Shown: positions 9,928 through 51,810 of the stretch, one piece after another
Position numbering within the stretch: position 1 is the first letter of the stretch
Layout: every line of letters begins with the position of its first letter
Assembly: GCF_030845195.1 (NCBI RefSeq)
Contig: NZ_CP132543.1
Coordinates: forward strand, 1,443,501 to 1,507,500
DNA from: Sanyastnella coralliicola
Lineage (GTDB): Bacteria; Bacteroidota; Bacteroidia; Flavobacteriales_D; Sanyastnellaceae
Direction: 5' to 3'
DNA: 64,000 nt
Notes under the pieces: generated by a model
Told to the model about the DNA's origin: nothing
Databases searched by the model: none
The model's input: only the letters and a program-made list of their open reading frames with translations
Program-made: the position numbers and the translations under genes

Positions 9928-12081
9928 TTAGTTTGCGGCGCTTTCGCTGCCTTGGTTAGATTCGGTGAACTCAGGATTGCTGATGTCAGTTCCTAGGCGT
10001 TGGAGGTAGGCAATCAAGGCGATGATTTCCATGTTCTCACTAATCTCTAGGTCGTCTTCAGCAAGACTAGCTTGGATCCCTCTTGCTTGTGCTTGGAGGT
10101 CAGCTACCGCTTGAGTTTCGTAGCCTTCTTCGTAAGGCACACCCAAGGTGCGCATCACAGAGATCTTCTTCTCCGTATCGTCCATGCTTAGCTCGTTTTC
10201 AAAGAGCCATGGGTAAGGAGGCATCAATGATCCCGGAGACATAGTTCGCGGATCGAGCATGTGGTGGAAGTGCCATGAATCAGGGTACTTATTACCTACA
10301 CGGTGCAAGTCTGGTCCGGTACGCTTACTACCCCATAGGAATGGGTGATCATAAACGAACTCACCGGCCTTTGAATACTCACCGTATCGAGCTACCTCAT
10401 CACGGAAAGGTCTGATCATCTGGGAGTGACAGTTATTACAACCTTCACGGATGTAGATGTCTCGTCCTTCTAGTTCAAGAGGTGTGTATGGCTGCACCGC
10501 ATTAATGGTCGGCACATTCTCACTGATCAACATGGTTGGGATGATTTCAACGATACCACCGATGAGGATGACCACCAAACTTCCGACAAGCATCTGTACA
10601 GGACGACGCTCAATCCAACGGTGCCAGTTCTCACCTGCGTGGCTTTTGTACTTGCCTTCAAGCGCAGGAGCTTCCGCATCTTCGTTGGCAACGAAGCTTC
10701 CAACTTTCACAGTCTTCACAACGTTGTACACCATCAAGAGCGCACCAATCAGGAAGAGCGTTCCTCCAAATGCACGCATCGCGTACATCGGCTTCAACTG
10801 GATTACTGTTTCCAAGAAGTTCGGGTAGAGGAGCATTCCTTCCGGACGGAACTGTTTCCACATCAATGCTTGAGTGAATCCAGCCCAGTACATCGGCAAT
10901 GCGTAGAATAGGATACCGAGGGTGCCAATCCAGAAGTGAACGTTCGCAAGGCGCTTGCTGTGAAGCTTCGTGTTGAACAACTTCGGAATCAAGAAGTACA
11001 CCATACCGAAGGTGAGGAATCCATTCCATCCCAATCCACCAATGTGCACGTGGGCGATGGTCCAGTCAGTGTAGTGTGAGATCGCGTTTACGTTCTTCAA
11101 TGAGAGAAGAGGACCTTCAAGGGTAGACATACCGTAACATGTCACGGCTACCACGAAGAACTTCAAGATCGGTTCATCACGTACTTTATCCCAAGCACCT
11201 CGAAGAGTAAGTAGTCCGTTCAACATACCACCCCAAGACGGAGCGATAAGCATCAAAGAGAATACGGTTCCAAGTGATTGTGCCCAGTCTGGAAGCGCTG
11301 TGTACAATAGGTGGTGAGGACCTGCCCAGATGTAAATGAAAATCAAGGCCCAGAAGTGAATGATCGACAAACGGTAAGAGTAAACCGGTCTTCCTGAAGC
11401 CTTAGGGATGAAGTAGTACATCAATCCCAGGTAAGGAGTTGTAAGGAAGAAGGCTACCGCATTGTGACCATACCACCATTGTACCAAGGCATCTTGAACA
11501 CCTGCATATGCTGAGTAACTCTTCAAGAAGTTAACCGGCATTTCAAATGAGTTGAAGATGTGAAGTACGGCGACCGTCACGAAAGTGGCGATGTAGAACC
11601 AAATGGCTACGTAAAGGTGACGCTCGCGACGCTTGAGAATGGTAGCGAACATGTTCCAACCGAAGACTACCCAGATACCTGCGATGGCGATATCAATCGG
11701 CCACTCTAGTTCTGCGTACTCTTTTCCAGAGGTGATACCCAAGGGAAGCGTCAGTGCGGCAGAAACAATGATCAGCTGCCAACCCCAGAAGTTGATTCTG
11801 GAGAGCTTATCGCTCCACATTCGTGTTTTGAGGAGACGCTGCAGAGAGTAATAAACTCCAGCAAAAATTCCGTTCCCAACGAACGCGAAGATCACCGCGT
11901 TGGTGTGGAGTGGACGAATTCGGCCGAAAGTAAGCCAGCTTGTTCCGAAGTTCATCTCTGGGATGAAGATTTGGAGAGCGGCAATTACCCCGACCAACAT
12001 ACCTACAACGCCCCATAGGATGGTGGCGAAGAGGAACATTTTTACGATCTGGTTATCGTATGAAAACTTCTCAAGCTTCAT
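9928..12081 (-). CDS. ccoNO: Fused cbb3 oxidase subunits I and II (CcoN-CcoO)
   Basis: A 717-residue fusion of the catalytic subunit CcoN (residues ~1-480) with the monohaem subunit CcoO (~500-717). The CcoN part has the expected 12 or so membrane helices and the haem/Cu_B histidine regions, including WWYGHNAVAFFLTTPYLG, the IYIWAGPHHLLYT turn, and DWTIAHVHIGGLGWNGF. The CcoO part has GCNNCHSQMIRPFRDEVARY (haem c at ~546-550) and the Met ligand region SPGSLMPPYPWLF. The oxidase reduces oxygen with high affinity and pumps protons. The fused form is common in Bacteroidota; proteobacteria encode two proteins. The start overlaps the end of ccoS by 11 nt. Confidence 0.95.
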   Translation of the reverse strand: MKLEKFSYDNQIVKMFLFATILWGVVGMLVGVIAALQIFIPEMNFGTSWLTFGRIRPLHTNAVIFAFVGNGIFAGVYYSLQRLLKTRMWSDKLSRINFWGWQLIIVSAALTLPLGITSGKEYAELEWPIDIAIAGIWVVFGWNMFATILKRRERHLYVAIWFYIATFVTVAVLHIFNSFEMPVNFLKSYSAYAGVQDALVQWWYGHNAVAFFLTTPYLGLMYYFIPKASGRPVYSYRLSIIHFWALIFIYIWAGPHHLLYTALPDWAQSLGTVFSLMLIAPSWGGMLNGLLTLRGAWDKVRDEPILKFFVVAVTCYGMSTLEGPLLSLKNVNAISHYTDWTIAHVHIGGLGWNGFLTFGMVYFLIPKLFNTKLHSKRLANVHFWIGTLGILFYALPMYWAGFTQALMWKQFRPEGMLLYPNFLETVIQLKPMYAMRAFGGTLFLIGALLMVYNVVKTVKVGSFVANEDAEAPALEGKYKSHAGENWHRWIERRPVQMLVGSLVVILIGGIVEIIPTMLISENVPTINAVQPYTPLELEGRDIYIREGCNNCHSQMIRPFRDEVARYGEYSKAGEFVYDHPFLWGSKRTGPDLHRVGNKYPDSWHFHHMLDPRTMSPGSLMPPYPWLFENELSMDDTEKKISVMRTLGVPYEEGYETQAVADLQAQARGIQASLAEDDLEISENMEIIALIAYLQRLGTDISNPEFTESNQGSESAAN

Positions 12082-16114: not shown

Positions 16115-17158
16115 TCAATCCAAGTCATCCCACCAGCGCTTATTCGGGTTGTCGTTCAAAGTGAACAATTCTCCGATTTCAGGCGTGCTGTATTTCAGTC
16201 CCAACTTATCAGCCTCAGCCGTAAAACGATCGATCGGATCCTTCCAGTCGTGCTGCGCCAAAGCAAAGCCAGCCCAGTGCACAGCTACAGCGTGCTTCAC
16301 GCCGACTTCAATTGCAGCTTGTACGCTCTCTTCTGGATACATGTGAATTTGATGCCAGTTCTTATTGTATTGACCACACTCCATAAAGGCTAGGTCAGGA
16401 GCTCCGATACGCTTGGCCACTTCTTTAAAGTGATTTCCGTAACCACCGTCACCGCTAAACCACACGTGGTATTGCTGGCTTTTGATCGACCAACCTCCCC
16501 ACAAACACTTCGCTTGATCTCGAACGCCTCTTCCAGATGAATGGCGTGTAGGAGTATAGGTGATTCGGAGGTCATGGAAGGGGTGTTCATCCCACCAATC
16601 AAACTCTACAATGGCATTGCTTGGAATGTCCCATGAAAGCAGGTGACGCGCCGCTCCGAGTGCGACCCACCAAGTCTTCACCTTTCCTTTCAATCGCAGG
16701 ATACTATCCATATCCAAGTGATCATAGTGGTCATGTGAAATCAAGACGATATCGATCTCAGGCAATTGATCGATAATGTCAATGGTATTCTCTGAGAAAC
16801 GCTTCGTTGCAAACGGTGCGATGGGCGAGGCGTTATCGCCGAGCATCGGATCAATGAGAATATTCAATCCTGACAGTCTCATCAACACTACTGAATGCCC
16901 ATACCAGATGAATTGGGGCTCATTGCTCGTAAATGAGGCGGCCTCAAATGCCTTCACCGGTATAGGCTTCGCCGGCTGACGGTGCTTCTTGTCGAAGAAT
17001 TGCTTGTACAACAGCTTCGGCAGTTCATGCATGGTGAATTCAACACCTGTCTTCTCAATATTCACAAAGGTTCCTTCGCTCCAGTTGGTAGACTGCTCAT
17101 AGCGTTCTTTAAGTTCCTTAGTGACTTTGCCACCGAATTGTTGTCCAAATTTCTTCAT
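16115..17158 (-). CDS. NAPE-PLD/UlaG-like metallo-beta-lactamase-fold hydrolase
   Basis: A 347-residue hydrolase with a metallo-beta-lactamase fold. The metal-binding motif SHDHYDHLD fits the HxHxDH pattern, and further ligand regions are ITYTPTRHSSGRG, FSGDGGYGNHF and AVAVHWAGF. The arrangement, with FIWYGHSVVLMRLSGLNILIDPML, is that of the NAPE-PLD/UlaG-like lipid or lactone hydrolases. The substrate is unknown. The ATG complementary to 17156-17158 is chosen over two GTG codons just upstream. It stands alone, followed downstream by the hemN promoter region and preceded by a heptamer array. Confidence 0.82.
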   Translation of the reverse strand: MKKFGQQFGGKVTKELKERYEQSTNWSEGTFVNIEKTGVEFTMHELPKLLYKQFFDKKHRQPAKPIPVKAFEAASFTSNEPQFIWYGHSVVLMRLSGLNILIDPMLGDNASPIAPFATKRFSENTIDIIDQLPEIDIVLISHDHYDHLDMDSILRLKGKVKTWWVALGAARHLLSWDIPSNAIVEFDWWDEHPFHDLRITYTPTRHSSGRGVRDQAKCLWGGWSIKSQQYHVWFSGDGGYGNHFKEVAKRIGAPDLAFMECGQYNKNWHQIHMYPEESVQAAIEVGVKHAVAVHWAGFALAQHDWKDPIDRFTAEADKLGLKYSTPEIGELFTLNDNPNKRWWDDLD

Positions 17159-17213
17159 CACCACGAAGGTACGTTGAGGAAATCACAAGAGAATAACACG
17201 AATCGCTGAAAGG

Positions 17214-17346
17214 GGAACGCGGATCGCGGATTGCGGTGGAATGTGGAACGCGGAACGCAGAACGCGGTGATTGGTTCTTGGTAGCTGGTTCTTAGTTATC
17301 AATTATAGTTTATCGACCCTAGACCCTAGACTCTCGTCTCTAGACT
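17214..17346. repeat. Heptamer-periodic array 1 (19 units)
   Basis: 133 bp divisible without slippage into 19 heptamers. The unit drifts stepwise: GGAACGC, GGATCGC, GGATTGC, then TGTGGAA, CGCGGAA, CGCGGTG, ATTGGTT, CTTGGTA, CTTAGTT, ATAGTTT, ATCGACC, CTAGACC, CTCGTCT, CTAGACT. The block order is the same as in array 2 downstream. It fills most of the gap before the 281-residue unknown gene and ends 28 bp before its ATG. Confidence 0.9.
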
Positions 17347-17374
17347 AATAAGTCCGTTCTTTCGTTGATATGTC

Positions 17375-18220
17375 ATGAAATTCGCCTTAACCCTAGCCTT
17401 AGGCTTGCTCTTCTCGATATGTTCTTATTCTCAAGACACGCTGATTGCAAGTCATTTCTTTCAAGGGATTAACTACTTCATGAATTCAGATTACTTGGTA
17501 AATCGCGGTATTCAATCGCTGGAGTCTACGGTTGAGTTGAAGGGAGAGCGATTCGTGATAGAACAGCTGGTCTTCGATTCAAATGGAGAAACCAGCGTTA
17601 TCAAAGATTGGTACGGAAGTAAGGTGTTACTTGACGATAGCTTGATCCTACAGACCTACGACGATACGTTGATTTGTACCCGCTTGAGTAGCGAACTGCT
17701 TGATGTAGAAGGAGATTCCTGTTTTATAACCAGTCGCAAGTGGAAGGAGGGGGGAAAGCACTATTCCGTGGATACATATACTACCCCAAAAGAGCGAAGA
17801 AGGAAGGAAGCGAAATTCGTGGCGATTTTTGGCACCTCCGCTCCCAAATGGGATTACCCAGAGGATTTGAAAATGGGAAAGTGGTTTCCCGATTCTCGAA
17901 CTGAAACTACCGTAACAAGCCGGAAGAGATCGGAAGTGTTTATTGACTTCATCTACAAAGACAATGTCAAGATCGAGATTGAAACAAATCGAAAGGGACG
18001 AATCAAGTCATACATCTATCGAGAAGCTGACTGGGAAATCCAGGTCAAGTTTAACAGTAAGGGAGCCCCGCTAAGTGTCACAAGAAGAGATGAGGATCAC
18101 TCTGTCTTCAATCAACTCGAGTTTCAGTATGAACAAGGAATTCCTGTGAGTTACACGATCTATGATGGATATAGCAAGGAGGTTTCGACCCCCGTGCGAA
18201 TAGAGGTGACGTACTGGTAG
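17375..18220 (+). CDS. Secreted protein of unknown function
   Basis: A 281-residue protein I do not recognise. It has a clear signal peptide (MKFALTLALGLLFSICSYS, then QDTL) and a mature part rich in beta-strand and charged residues, with YIYREADWEIQVKFNSKGAP resembling the repeated MORN/RHS-like 'toxin-antitoxin variant' strands found in many small Bacteroidota periplasmic proteins. No catalytic motif or T9SS tail is seen. Both sides carry heptamer-periodic arrays in the same orientation, ending 28 bp before the start and beginning 4 bp after the stop, so the gene is framed by long imperfect direct repeats. Confidence 0.7.
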   Translation: MKFALTLALGLLFSICSYSQDTLIASHFFQGINYFMNSDYLVNRGIQSLESTVELKGERFVIEQLVFDSNGETSVIKDWYGSKVLLDDSLILQTYDDTLICTRLSSELLDVEGDSCFITSRKWKEGGKHYSVDTYTTPKERRRKEAKFVAIFGTSAPKWDYPEDLKMGKWFPDSRTETTVTSRKRSEVFIDFIYKDNVKIEIETNRKGRIKSYIYREADWEIQVKFNSKGAPLSVTRRDEDHSVFNQLEFQYEQGIPVSYTIYDGYSKEVSTPVRIEVTYW

Positions 18221-18224
18221 AGGG

Positions 18225-18462
18225 TGGACGGTAGACGGTGGACGGTGGACGGTGGAATGCGGAACGCGGAACGCAGAACGCGGTTGAATGTGGAATGCGG
18301 AACGCGGAACGCGGTGATTGGTTCTTGGTTCCTGGTTTTTAGTTCCTGGTTTTTAGTTCTTGGTAGCTGGTTCTTAGTTATCGATTATAGTCTATCGATT
18401 ATCGTTTCTAGACCCTCGACCCTCGACCTTCGACCCTCGACTCTCGTCTCTCGTCTCTAGAC
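18225..18462. repeat. Heptamer-periodic array 2 (34 units)
   Basis: 238 bp made of exactly 34 heptamers in one phase. Units run TGGACGG (x3, plus TAGACGG), TGGAATG, CGGAACG (x2), CAGAACG, ATGCGGA, ACGCGGA, GATTGGT, TCTTGGT, TCCTGGT, TTTTAGT, AGCTGGT, TCTTAGT, TATCGAT, TATAGTC, TCTAGAC, CCTCGAC (x3), TCTCGTC (x2), TCTAGAC. A 78-codon open frame across it is a product of the period-7 repeat and not a gene. The remaining gap to 18578 holds nothing else recognisable. Confidence 0.92.
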
Positions 18463-18578
18463 CAACCCCAGGTTCACAAAACCGAAAAACCCATGCATTC
18501 AACCAAATTCTAACTCCGCTTACTCAGAACGCTGTCTGGCATAATGTTGGGAATACTTTCTTCGTTCTAAAAAGAAAT

Positions 18579-19301
18579 ATGAGTATGACCTTCAACGAAT
18601 GGCGTAAGTGGTTCGAGTTCAATAAGAACTCGATGGACTCTGTCCCTGCCGATTGCTCTCCCGAATTGTCGATGGCTGAACTCGATTTGATCACGCATTC
18701 GATCCAACAATTCCAACGTGGTGAATACAGCGAAGGGAAGAACCTGCTGAAGTTCGCCAAACAGTGGGGGCGGACAGATTATGTAGAAGCGATCAAGGTG
18801 TTTATCCGTGAAGAGCAACGACACGCGATTGTGTTGGGCGAATTCATGAAAGCTGAGGGCATCGAACGCATCTCGGATCATTGGGTGGATGACACCTTTC
18901 GATTTCTTAGAAAGTACCTAGGGCTGGAGAATTCAATCCGCATCCTAGGTGTAGCTGAGATTATTGCGGTGCCGTACTATGCAGCATTACATGACTGCAC
19001 CAATTCACGACGGTTGAAGGCGATTTGCAAGCAGATACTGCGTGATGAACATAAACACCTGCAGTTTCAAGCCGAGACCATTGAGGTCATCGGGAAAGAG
19101 CAAACCATGCTCAGACGTGAAATCGCCAATGTGCTTCAAGCAGTACTTATGCTGGGCACAATCATGATTGTGTGGTTACACCACCGAAGCATCCTGAAGA
19201 AAGGAGGGTATAGCTTCCTGAGATTCTTGAGGGAATGTGTGTCGTTGTTTGTTCGCCTTGTAGGGCAATCGATGGGTGAGCGTACTGTGGCTATGGGTTG
19301 A
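18579..19301 (+). CDS. Ferritin-like diiron protein with C-terminal membrane segment
   Basis: A 240-residue protein predicted to be mostly helical. Two helices carry the E-x-x-x-H type metal motifs of ferritin-like proteins: EEQRHAIVLGEF (~residue 86) and DEHKHLQFQAE (~155), with possible further Glu ligands in EIIAVPYY. Near the C-terminus is a hydrophobic segment (NVLQAVLMLGTIMIVWL, ~185-202), so it may be membrane-anchored. Such proteins can be diiron oxidases, desaturase-like or iron stores; the exact role is unknown. An ATG at 18585 is an alternative start. Confidence 0.65.
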   Translation: MSMTFNEWRKWFEFNKNSMDSVPADCSPELSMAELDLITHSIQQFQRGEYSEGKNLLKFAKQWGRTDYVEAIKVFIREEQRHAIVLGEFMKAEGIERISDHWVDDTFRFLRKYLGLENSIRILGVAEIIAVPYYAALHDCTNSRRLKAICKQILRDEHKHLQFQAETIEVIGKEQTMLRREIANVLQAVLMLGTIMIVWLHHRSILKKGGYSFLRFLRECVSLFVRLVGQSMGERTVAMG

Positions 19302-25451: not shown

Positions 25452-26420
25452 ATGGATCTACATGCAATGGCGGATAACCTTACGAATCCCGCCTTACTCT
25501 TTTTCCTTCTGGGAATCATCGCTGTGCAGCTCAAAAGTGATCTGCGGATCCCAGAAAACTCTTCCAAGTTCATCTCTATCTACCTCCTTCTCTCTATTGG
25601 TTTTAAAGGTGGTCAAGAACTTTCGCACGCCTCACTCAACGCGGAAATTGTATTGAGTATGCTCTTGGGAGTATTTCTAGCTTCAATCGTACCCTTAGTC
25701 TCCTTCTTCATCCTGAAGAGGAAAATGAGTCCGGCTAACGCAGGGGCGATTGCAGCTTCCTATGGTTCAGTAAGTGCCGTCACATTTGTGACGGCTACTT
25801 CTTTTCTAGACTTTGAAAGTCAAGTTTTTAGCGGACATATGATCGCAGTTATGGCATTGATGGAGGCTCCGGCTATCATCATTGGTGTGCTGTTGATCAA
25901 CTACTTTAAACGCAATGAAAATTGTGAAAAGGCTTCTCTTGGAGGTATCATCAAGCACTCCGTTACCAATGGTAGTGTCATGATCATCCTAGGTAGTTTG
26001 GTGATTGGTTTTCTCGCTAGCGCGGAACAAGCAGAAGGCATTAAACCATTTACTACGGATATCTTCAAAGGCTTCCTTGCTGTATTCTTGCTAGACATGG
26101 GAATCACCAGTGGAAGACACCTCTCGGATATGTTGAAGAAAGGAGTCTACCCATTCTTGTTCTCATCAATCATGCCTTTCTTCAACGGACTAATGGCACT
26201 CTTTATCAGTATGCAGATTACTGACTCGCCAGGAAACCAACTCTTATTCGCCATTCTCGGAGCAAGCGCCTCATACATTGCCGTTCCAGCCGCAATGAAG
26301 AACGCCGTTCCAGATGCCAACCCAGGCCTTTATTTGCCTATGGCCTTAGGTATAACCTTCCCGATCAACGTAATCATCGGGATCCCATTCTACTTTTCAA
26401 TTATTCTAGGATTTGGTTGA
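25452..26420 (+). CDS. sbtA: SbtA-family sodium-dependent bicarbonate transporter
   Basis: A 322-residue membrane protein with about ten hydrophobic segments. It matches the SbtA family (formerly DUF897), recognisable from NPALLFFLLGIIAVQLKSDL, FISIYLLLSIGFKGGQEL and GSVSAVTFVTATSFL, with a second inverted-repeat half from ~170 (GSVMIILGSLVIGFL). Known members import bicarbonate with Na+. In a heterotroph this would feed carboxylases under low CO2; that role is inferred. An ATG six codons in (MADNLTNPALLFF) is an alternative start. The TGA stop lies in the first heptamer of array 3. Confidence 0.85.
   Translation: MDLHAMADNLTNPALLFFLLGIIAVQLKSDLRIPENSSKFISIYLLLSIGFKGGQELSHASLNAEIVLSMLLGVFLASIVPLVSFFILKRKMSPANAGAIAASYGSVSAVTFVTATSFLDFESQVFSGHMIAVMALMEAPAIIIGVLLINYFKRNENCEKASLGGIIKHSVTNGSVMIILGSLVIGFLASAEQAEGIKPFTTDIFKGFLAVFLLDMGITSGRHLSDMLKKGVYPFLFSSIMPFFNGLMALFISMQITDSPGNQLLFAILGASASYIAVPAAMKNAVPDANPGLYLPMALGITFPINVIIGIPFYFSIILGFG
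26015..26027 (-). repeat. Dispersed 13-mer, exact copy
   Basis: Antisense copy in sbtA. The gene reads Ala-Ser-Ala-Glu in a loop between helices. Confidence 0.9.
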
Positions 26421-26521
26421 CGGTAGGCGGTGGACAGTGGACGGTGGACGGTTGACGGATTAGTTTCTGTCCACTGTCCACTGTCCACTGTCCACCGTCT
26501 ACCGCCTACGGCCTACTGCTT
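26417..26521. repeat. Heptamer-periodic array 3, forming a long hairpin
   Basis: Fifteen heptamers in one phase: TTGACGG, TAGGCGG, TGGACAG, TGGACGG (x2), TTGACGG, ATTAGTT, TCTGTCC, ACTGTCC (x3), ACCGTCT, ACCGCCT, ACGGCCT, ACTGCTT. The right half is an imperfect inverted copy of the left half, so the RNA can fold into a stem of about 36 bp with mismatches and a short loop around 26459-26465. Both flanking convergent genes have their stop codons inside the array. It may act as a bidirectional terminator. Confidence 0.85.
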
Positions 26522-26935
26522 ACAAACACCACAATCAGCCCGATTGTGAATACCAAAATGAAGCACCTGCGGCTTCGCTGGCTGAATCTTTTCGTCGTAG
26601 ATGACGAGTTGTTCTTTATTGAGCTGAGCTCGAATATCTAATTCACGGAGTTCGCGGAGATCTTTCTTTTCTTGACCTATCATTTGGATTCTGACTAGCA
26701 CCTGATCTTCAGTAAGAAGTGTGTCAGACTCGACTTCATCTGTTCGAAGGTCCAATAGATTAAATTCAGCAGCGTAGTGCTGGAAAACGCTGTCGATTGC
26801 CGCTGATTGATCAGGGGTCAGGGTAATATTTTTGTCGATGGCATCACGTTTGCGCTTATCTACAATAGATAAGTCCTGCGCATATCCGAAATTGGAGGCG
26901 CAGATTAAGACAACAATGATGAATCTTCCGATCAT
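26513..26935 (-). CDS. Small secreted protein of unknown function
   Basis: A 140-residue protein with a signal peptide (MIGRFIIVVLICASNFGYA). The mature part is predicted helical: DKRKRDAIDKNITLTPDQSAAIDSVF..., LTEDQVLVRIQMIGQEKKDLRELRELDIRAQLNKEQLVIYDE. The spacing of 'LTPDQ...ID' and 'LNKEQL..YDE' resembles small periplasmic Spy/CpxP-like helical proteins in layout, although no LTxxQ pair is clear; this is only an impression. The C-terminus has HNRADCGVCKQ with a CxxC. The start codon overlaps that of the divergent dacB gene (CATG). The TAG stop lies inside array 3. Confidence 0.6.
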   Translation of the reverse strand: MIGRFIIVVLICASNFGYAQDLSIVDKRKRDAIDKNITLTPDQSAAIDSVFQHYAAEFNLLDLRTDEVESDTLLTEDQVLVRIQMIGQEKKDLRELRELDIRAQLNKEQLVIYDEKIQPAKPQVLHFGIHNRADCGVCKQ

Positions 26936-51769: not shown

Positions 51770-51782
51770 AAAATTCACTAAA

Positions 51783-51810
51783 GCCTAACGCCTATAGCCT
51801 AACGCCTAAA
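51783..51810. repeat. Heptamer-periodic array 4 (4 units)
   Basis: GCCTAAC, GCCTATA, GCCTAAC, GCCTAAA, a short array with the same 7-bp period, just upstream of rnpB. Confidence 0.7.

Follow-up and report, generated by a model that had tools for sequence, protein, structure and literature searches.

Drifting heptamer arrays with a recurring block order between genes of Sanyastnella coralliicola

RESULTS

Three heptamer arrays and their neighbouring genes

We examined a 64,000-nt stretch of the Sanyastnella coralliicola genome (contig NZ_CP132543.1, positions 1,443,501 to 1,507,500; the window), using an autocorrelation scan that returned period 7 at 17194–17347, 18201–18480 and 26412–26544. 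When periods 2 to 15 were scanned, 14 was the one value besides 7 that rang in the window, at two of the same places. The three arrays and the genes around the first two are listed in Table 1. A short heptamer array of the CTAAAGC/CTAACGC type was also noticed at 51778–51810.

Table 1. Heptamer arrays and adjacent genes in the window
Feature	Position	Strand	Description
MBL-fold (Lactamase_B_2) gene	16115–17164	−	Left of array 1
Array 1	about 17206–17347	+	~20 heptamers; between divergent genes; GGAACGC/GGATTGC > GGTTCTT > TATCAAT/TATAGTT > GACCCTA > CTCGTCT
281-aa ORF	17375–18220	+	Between arrays 1 and 2; hydrophobic, signal-peptide-like start (by eye)
Array 2	about 18216–18464	+	~35 heptamers; begins at the stop codon of the 281-aa ORF; GGTGGAC > GGAACGC > GGTTCTT > ATCGATT > GACCCTC > CTCGTCT
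Rubrerythrin-like gene	18579–19301	+	Right of array 2; marginally above the Pfam cut-off
Third array	26412–26544	.	Long hairpin, GGTGGAC-type units, between convergent genes

The 281-aa ORF matched no Pfam family at E ≤ 0.001, and a search of 40 genomes found it in its own genome only, with no match among the 39 relatives. The MBL-fold protein has a 97% identical counterpart in a congener (G001), with a heptamer array at the same place after it, and the G001 contig that carries the rubrerythrin-like orthologue also has heptamers upstream of that gene. In G001, heptamers thus follow the left gene on one contig and precede the right gene on another, and each contig stops at this locus. Because non-array sequence adjoins the G001 heptamers and the 281-aa ORF was matched only in S. 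coralliicola among the 40 genomes, other sequence appears to have entered the array 1/2 chain in both species. The units of the third array carry the stop codons of both convergent genes (26418–26420 on the + strand, 26513–26515 on the − strand).

Arrays 1 and 2 drift and are sister copies

To describe the change of unit along an array, we compared unit identity in phase and off phase as a function of lag. Units of array 2 have an in-phase identity of 0.71 at a lag of one unit and of 0.25 at a lag of 13 (off-phase mean 0.26); in array 1 the value drops from 0.64 between neighbours to 0.16–0.20 at lags of 8–17 (off-phase 0.24). The off-phase level is reached at ~13 units in array 2 and ~7 units in array 1. 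Since in-phase identity decays with lag to the off-phase level, the unit genuinely drifts, which bears out the gradual change that a preliminary description of this DNA had reported for both arrays. The same decay is seen when all arrays of at least 70 nt are pooled (0.75 at lag 1, 0.30 at lag 12).

Aligned end to end, arrays 1 and 2 are 90.1% identical across 141 columns. The alignment has three gaps, of 35, 14 and 21 nt. Each gap is a multiple of 7, and the two arrays are therefore sister copies whose differences amount to five, two and three whole units. The blocks follow one another in the same order in both, and the two have rare strings in common, e.g. GGTAGCTGGTTCTTAG, which occurs twice in an 800-kb sample of the genome, both times in the window. 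The earlier claim of a single element present in two copies, which share long stretches but differ in unit number, is thereby upheld. Their flanks are unrelated to each other.

That description had also stated that both arrays keep a strict 7-bp phase with no slip. The period stands, but each array has one 3-nt shift within its GGAACGC block: the anchor words are 10 nt apart in array 1 (17228 to 17238) and 17 nt apart in array 2 (18275 to 18292), so the phase is imperfect.

A dispersed family with a preferred block order

The S. coralliicola genome is a single contig of 4.10 Mb, in which a BLAST search with array 2 gives 64 matches. We sampled 800 kb of it in four blocks, the largest of which (440 kb) includes the window while the others are of 120 kb each. 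A log-odds scan of this sample found 54 period-7 segments: 37 in the 440-kb block and 2, 11 and 4 in the 120-kb blocks. Applied to periods 4 to 28 other than the multiples of 7, the same scan gave 0–7 segments per period, and a shuffled copy of the largest block gave no period-7 segment. Further arrays therefore exist in the genome, and the possibility raised at the outset, that there might be none, can be set aside. Head-to-tail 7-bp units with period 7 favoured are as expected of the heptameric simple sequence repeat (SSR)/STRR class; the sample holds 43 different exact tandem words, however, where that class has one word per array or family.

The comparison of arrays by block order, proposed in the preliminary description, gave the same direction at 37 of 43 decided loci. 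This count covers 44 loci with at least two blocks (37 same, six reverse, one tie), and is to be read with the knowledge that the word sets combine array 2 words with variants met at the examined loci, i.e. were chosen after inspection, that some loci were retrieved by likeness to array 2, and that some G001 loci are orthologues of S. coralliicola loci. The count leaves out arrays 1 and 2 with their G001 counterpart, as well as L003, L010, L011, L013 and L019, all of which either belong to the finding or duplicate another locus, and any locus that holds fewer than two blocks. Within the unselected S. coralliicola sample, 13 loci had the same direction, four the reverse and one was tied (two-sided sign test ~0.05, by our own arithmetic). 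The fullest agreement is at L002, with five blocks in order, and at the S. coralliicola array at 1533030, with four; L004 and L009 have four blocks each with a step back. The shared order is present on both strands.

Similarity between arrays largely stops where the arrays stop. Among 69 array records there were 185 high-identity matches, 170 of which extend at most 20 nt past the array edge. The remaining 15 comprise 12 that stem from overlapping records or local duplications, and three of 47–48 nt, one of them to a distant site; leaving those three aside, no clear recent transfer between distant sites was found among the 185 matches. Paralogous pairs other than arrays 1 and 2 have gaps such as 37 and 5 nt. 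We also noted by eye that period-8 runs, e.g. GGCTAAAT and GGCGAAAT, adjoin some period-7 arrays (near C1:1604.8k and C1:1727.1k).

Arrays lie between genes and favour gene 3' ends

All 54 segments have intergenic midpoints, although 90–93% of the 800 kb is called coding (mechanical ORF calls); together with the 64 BLAST matches genome-wide, this gives the dispersed intergenic copies that are typical of the heptameric SSR/STRR class. For the 47 segments placed in intergenic regions of at least 50 bp, we compared the contexts with expectation by length: 19 are in convergent regions (6.2 expected), 20 in co-directional regions (25.9 expected) and eight in divergent regions (14.9 expected), these contexts being approximate since the mechanical gene call misclassed the region of the third array as co-directional. 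We then counted gene ends in 37 intergenic regions, with one entry each. Where a side faces a gene 3' end (46 cases), the array is at most 10 nt away in 24, against 15.4 expected, and none of 2000 random-placement simulations reached 24; in 14 of the 46 the array touches or overlaps the stop codon. On sides facing a 5' end the corresponding count is 3/28 (5.4 expected).

Hairpins occur in a part of the family but do not explain the drift order

The enrichment at convergent regions and gene 3' ends suits an alternative in which the arrays are 3'-end RNA structures, i.e. transcribed hairpins that end or stabilise mRNAs, with the drift reflecting the two arms of a long imperfect stem. Transcript-stability roles have been suggested for the hairpin-forming STRRs of Nostoc and its relatives (PMC2670836, in the part accessible). 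Individual arrays also fold well: the third array has an MFE of −82.6 kcal/mol over 126 nt, with only 1/100 unit-order shuffles as low, and for array 2 the in-phase unit shuffles that fold as low are 1/100 and 7/200 on the + strand (79/200 on the other strand). As a group, 42 S. coralliicola arrays fold lower than letter shuffles (mean z −1.15, Wilcoxon p 0.009).

Against shuffles of unit order, however, the effect is small (mean z −0.37, p 0.07; −0.48, p 0.03 without G-U pairs). Array 1 folds no better than its shuffled versions (45/100 and 111/200 as low), and when 13 drifting-chain arrays were folded on both strands only one of 26 tests, that of array 2, was at or below 5%, as chance gives. 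Hairpin-like arrays are not commoner in convergent regions (3/8, against 11/29 of the others). A consensus scan of 17000–18700 found no terminator-like site (mean 1.7 in shuffles) and no promoter-like site, and of five terminator-like sites at 26200–26800 none is the third array's own stem; in these consensus scans the arrays did not show the stable stem followed by a T-tract of an intrinsic terminator. Rfam gave seven matches, all to microRNA-hairpin families at the third array and all below the gathering threshold.

Complementarity between neighbours is a point in favour of the RNA-structure reading. Of 44 neighbouring segment pairs, chosen independently of order and with many loci picked by the GGTGGAC word, 26 have complementary words when order is ignored and six have direct similarity. 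The order is mirrored in 7/26 complementary pairs at p ≤ 0.05 and in 4/26 at p ≤ 0.01, against 1/6 of the direct pairs used as a control. (A first count of 12/30 at p ≤ 0.05 was discarded, the pairs having been selected by their real score.) Folding as the cause of the drift order is unsupported for most chains by the unit-order shuffles on both strands, though we retain it for a subset of two-arm arrays. Since most chains fold no better than their unit shuffles, hairpins belong to a part of the family and do not explain its drift order. We consider the 3'-end RNA explanation unlikely.

Comparison with relatives

Array 2 has BLAST matches in three of 40 genomes: its own, that of the congener G001 (~91% identity) and one of another family (G038). 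At 15 G001 sites where both flanks could be matched, period-7 sequence was present at seven by the full threshold and at 11 by a lower one, which none of 400 background pieces reached; four sites had none. Among 11 aligned pairs from the two species, eight have in-array gaps of at least 4 nt and three have none above 1 nt. Nine of the 21 in-array gaps of at least 4 nt are multiples of 7, where ~3 would be expected, and 12 are not; counting gaps of all sizes, 22/31 are not. Outside the arrays, 3/22 gaps are multiples of 7. With respect to phase-variation contingency loci, where a change of unit number between strains switches a gene, the comparison gives a difference between species: unit number at some sites differs between S. 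coralliicola and G001, each species being represented by one genome.

The presence of period-7 sequence at matching sites of a separately assembled genome makes an assembly artefact unlikely. It is true that assemblers stumble at the arrays, as the G001 contigs that end in or near them attest, but the S. coralliicola genome is a single contig, and period-7 sequence recurs at the G001 sites (seven by the strict threshold or 11 by the lenient one, of 15); the chance that the arrays are artefactual is in our estimation negligible.

Several G001 contigs terminate in or near arrays. In another relative (G013), both ends of one contig (L297; contig C1, 1–388 and 19509–19800) are heptamer arrays of the ACTAGTC type. 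When region A of S. coralliicola was compared with G001, an S. coralliicola array lay within 40 nt of six of the 17 junctions listed, a raw count uncorrected for the intergenic bias of the arrays, from which we draw no conclusion on arrays as hot spots of gene gain and loss; the six comprise three gene-size gaps, two gaps of 155 and 229 nt, and one contig end. At one site, the S. coralliicola array C1:1604870–1604983 and the coding sequence that precedes it are absent from the matching G001 site, a possible filled/empty pair.

Such a pair, along with many dispersed copies on both strands and a common internal order, would be expected of a mobile element with fixed ends, e.g. a REP or MITE moved by a transposase. 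We find this very unlikely. The sequences that flank array 1 bear no relation to those around array 2, 170/185 matches end with the array, and the presence of candidate enzymes does not follow the arrays, neither reverse transcriptase nor Y1 transposase being tenable as their maker. The Y1 transposase domain (Y1_Tnp), which should track REP or MITE elements, is missing from the array-bearing G013 and occurs three times in G008, where 40 kb held no array; the reverse-transcriptase domain (RVT_1) is absent from the array-rich G001.

Period-7 arrays with other words were found in four relatives (G002, G013, G027 and G038, the stretches of the last having been chosen around BLAST matches), and a sample of 238.8 kb, drawn from ten more genomes within the family or order, showed no period-7 array. 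This distribution bears on the idea that the arrays are bound by a protein, one reading RNA or DNA seven nucleotides at a time, so that the step is conserved and the letters are free to drift. A constant step with free letters is what the arrays have, period 7 is favoured in unrelated genomes, and cold-shock-type proteins are discussed for the TAACTGA repeats in the accessible text of MacGregor 2015 (PMC4679880). The patchiness among relatives would nevertheless be odd for the site of a housekeeping protein, and the position of the arrays favours gene 3' ends over start codons; binding of this kind is, we think, improbable.

GGTGGAC arrays in other phyla

The exact 21-mer (GGTGGAC)x3 is found in at least 120 stretches of the genome collection, where ~0.1 would be expected in uniform DNA (our own arithmetic). 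Among the matches listed, the record titles name Bacteroidota groups, Gemmatimonadetes, Chloroflexi, Planctomycetota, Lentisphaerota, Treponema and Spirochaetes, as well as Hydrogenedentota, Thermoanaerobaculia, Verrucomicrobia, Omnitrophota, gammaproteobacteria and two actinobacteria. We examined 80 of the at least 120 loci: 79 have a called period-7 segment, 18 have an inverted neighbouring pair, and drift is visible at some (e.g. L142, L193 and L200). In a Saprospiraceae genome that was picked for the GGTGGAC word, a stretch taken blindly (L281) holds at 10214–10332 a two-arm hairpin of GGTTCTT and AGTTATT in mirrored order, both of which are also words of the S. coralliicola genome.

A universal vocabulary of heptamers was considered and rejected. 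Allowing one mismatch, GGAACGCGGAACGCGG occurs in three of 14 genomes with (GGTGGAC)x3 and is abundant in only one; (GGTGGAC)x3 occurs in one of 395 genomes of the phylum, that of S. coralliicola; and (TTGGTTC)x3 occurs in none of 150 genomes of the order, S. coralliicola included.

DISCUSSION

We think it probable that the arrays are non-coding repeats that change by slippage of whole units and spread by the copying of segments, presumably with no dedicated function. Arrays 1 and 2 would then be members of a dispersed non-coding heptamer family comparable to the STRR sequences of cyanobacteria. Whole 7-bp units would be gained and lost, most likely through replication slippage or unequal recombination, a new unit being copied from its neighbour and mutating later. 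Near units would be alike and distant ones not, i.e. the array would drift, because each unit began as a copy of the one beside it. That gain and loss of whole units together with mutation gives the drift is well supported by the sister copies.

From the shared block order and the matches that end with the array, we infer that segments are copied between loci; the simplest route would be ectopic recombination, or gene conversion, involving arrays at different intergenic sites. Such copying would account for the same block order at many loci and for sister arrays on either side of a gene. The arrays may persist where they are least harmful, above all at gene 3' ends. The subset with two inverted, matched arms plausibly arose by fold-back template switching. 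The data themselves establish the period, the drift, the recurring order, the position and the differences by whole units between arrays 1 and 2; slippage, recombinational copying, fold-back and the lack of a dedicated function are our interpretation of them.

Some observations sit less easily with this combination of slippage and copying. That unrelated loci share one direction of order does not follow from slippage by itself, though copying explains it; yet six loci have the reverse order and 12 of the 21 in-array gaps of at least 4 nt are not multiples of 7. Nor does copying inside a single genome account for the presence of (GGTGGAC)x3 in many phyla, where at least 120 stretches have it. 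One might propose that the one-way chain GGTGGAC > GGAACGC > GGTTCTT > ATCGATT > GACCCTC > CTCGTCT is not only copied but written, by a process of fixed 7-nt step common to many bacteria, hence the GGTGGAC arrays and mirrored two-arm arrays of unrelated phyla. We hold out little expectation that this is so.

If copies of one family grow and shrink by whole units, as they appear to do, the arrays are a natural test case for the preference of bacteria for seven-base repeats. Why the unit is of exactly seven bases has been addressed by an idea of polymerase contact, cited in PMC4692102 and PMC4679880 (accessible text of each). The drifting chains would preserve a record of unit addition, loss and copying, so that a comparison of close strains could separate slippage, recombination and fold-back synthesis, and likewise tolerance at gene 3' ends from function.

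Heptamer repeats are already known from cyanobacteria, Xanthomonas, Beggiatoaceae and some Bacteroidetes, and both they and the idea of slippage have precedent in the accessible parts of PMC4692102 and PMC4679880, which cite an earlier account of long simple sequence repeats in prokaryotes (Mrazek 2007). The preliminary description regarded the stepwise form as unfamiliar in Bacteroidota; this has to be revised, as heptamers are described for five Bacteroidetes (PMC4679880, in the part accessible) and comparable arrays turned up in our own searches, both elsewhere in the Bacteroidota and in further phyla. What we did not find described in open-licence PMC papers is a chain that drifts and is ordered. 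Neither work on intrastrand triplex repeats (PMC4666352) nor PMC4046671, each in its accessible part, has a bearing on the arrays.

The STRR (short tandemly repeated repetitive) sequences of filamentous cyanobacteria are intergenic head-to-tail repeats, usually of 7 bp, some with hairpin loops (accessible text of PMC2670836). The arrays described here resemble them in being intergenic head-to-tail 7-bp repeats, and the third array and some others form strong hairpins, which array 1 and most chains do not; they differ in host, in a unit that drifts through at least six words within one array, and in an order that recurs between loci. Among heptameric SSRs, GGGAATC of Xanthomonas and GGGGA(C/T)T of Nostoc are examples (Rehm 2015, PMC4692102, in the part accessible). 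The same source reports that period 7 is over-represented, that SSRs have a non-coding bias and are scarce between divergent genes, and that they lie between the same genes in related genomes with varying length and sequence. The non-coding bias, the scarcity between divergent genes and the variation in length agree with our observations, whereas those SSRs are of one consensus word and the arrays here are drifting chains with a directed order.

A further parallel is that of the TAACTGA heptamers of Beggiatoaceae, cyanobacteria and five Bacteroidetes, for which MacGregor 2015 (PMC4679880, accessible text) mentions 'larger assemblages of heptamer repeats' in one Bacteroidetes, reports contigs ending in repeats, and suggests a role in gene rearrangement. 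Period 7, intergenic position, Bacteroidetes hosts, larger assemblages and contigs that end in repeats are common to both. The TAACTGA repeats, as described in that text, are of one fixed word that in the main species lies mostly before start codons, whereas the words of the arrays described here drift and lie mostly at gene 3' ends.
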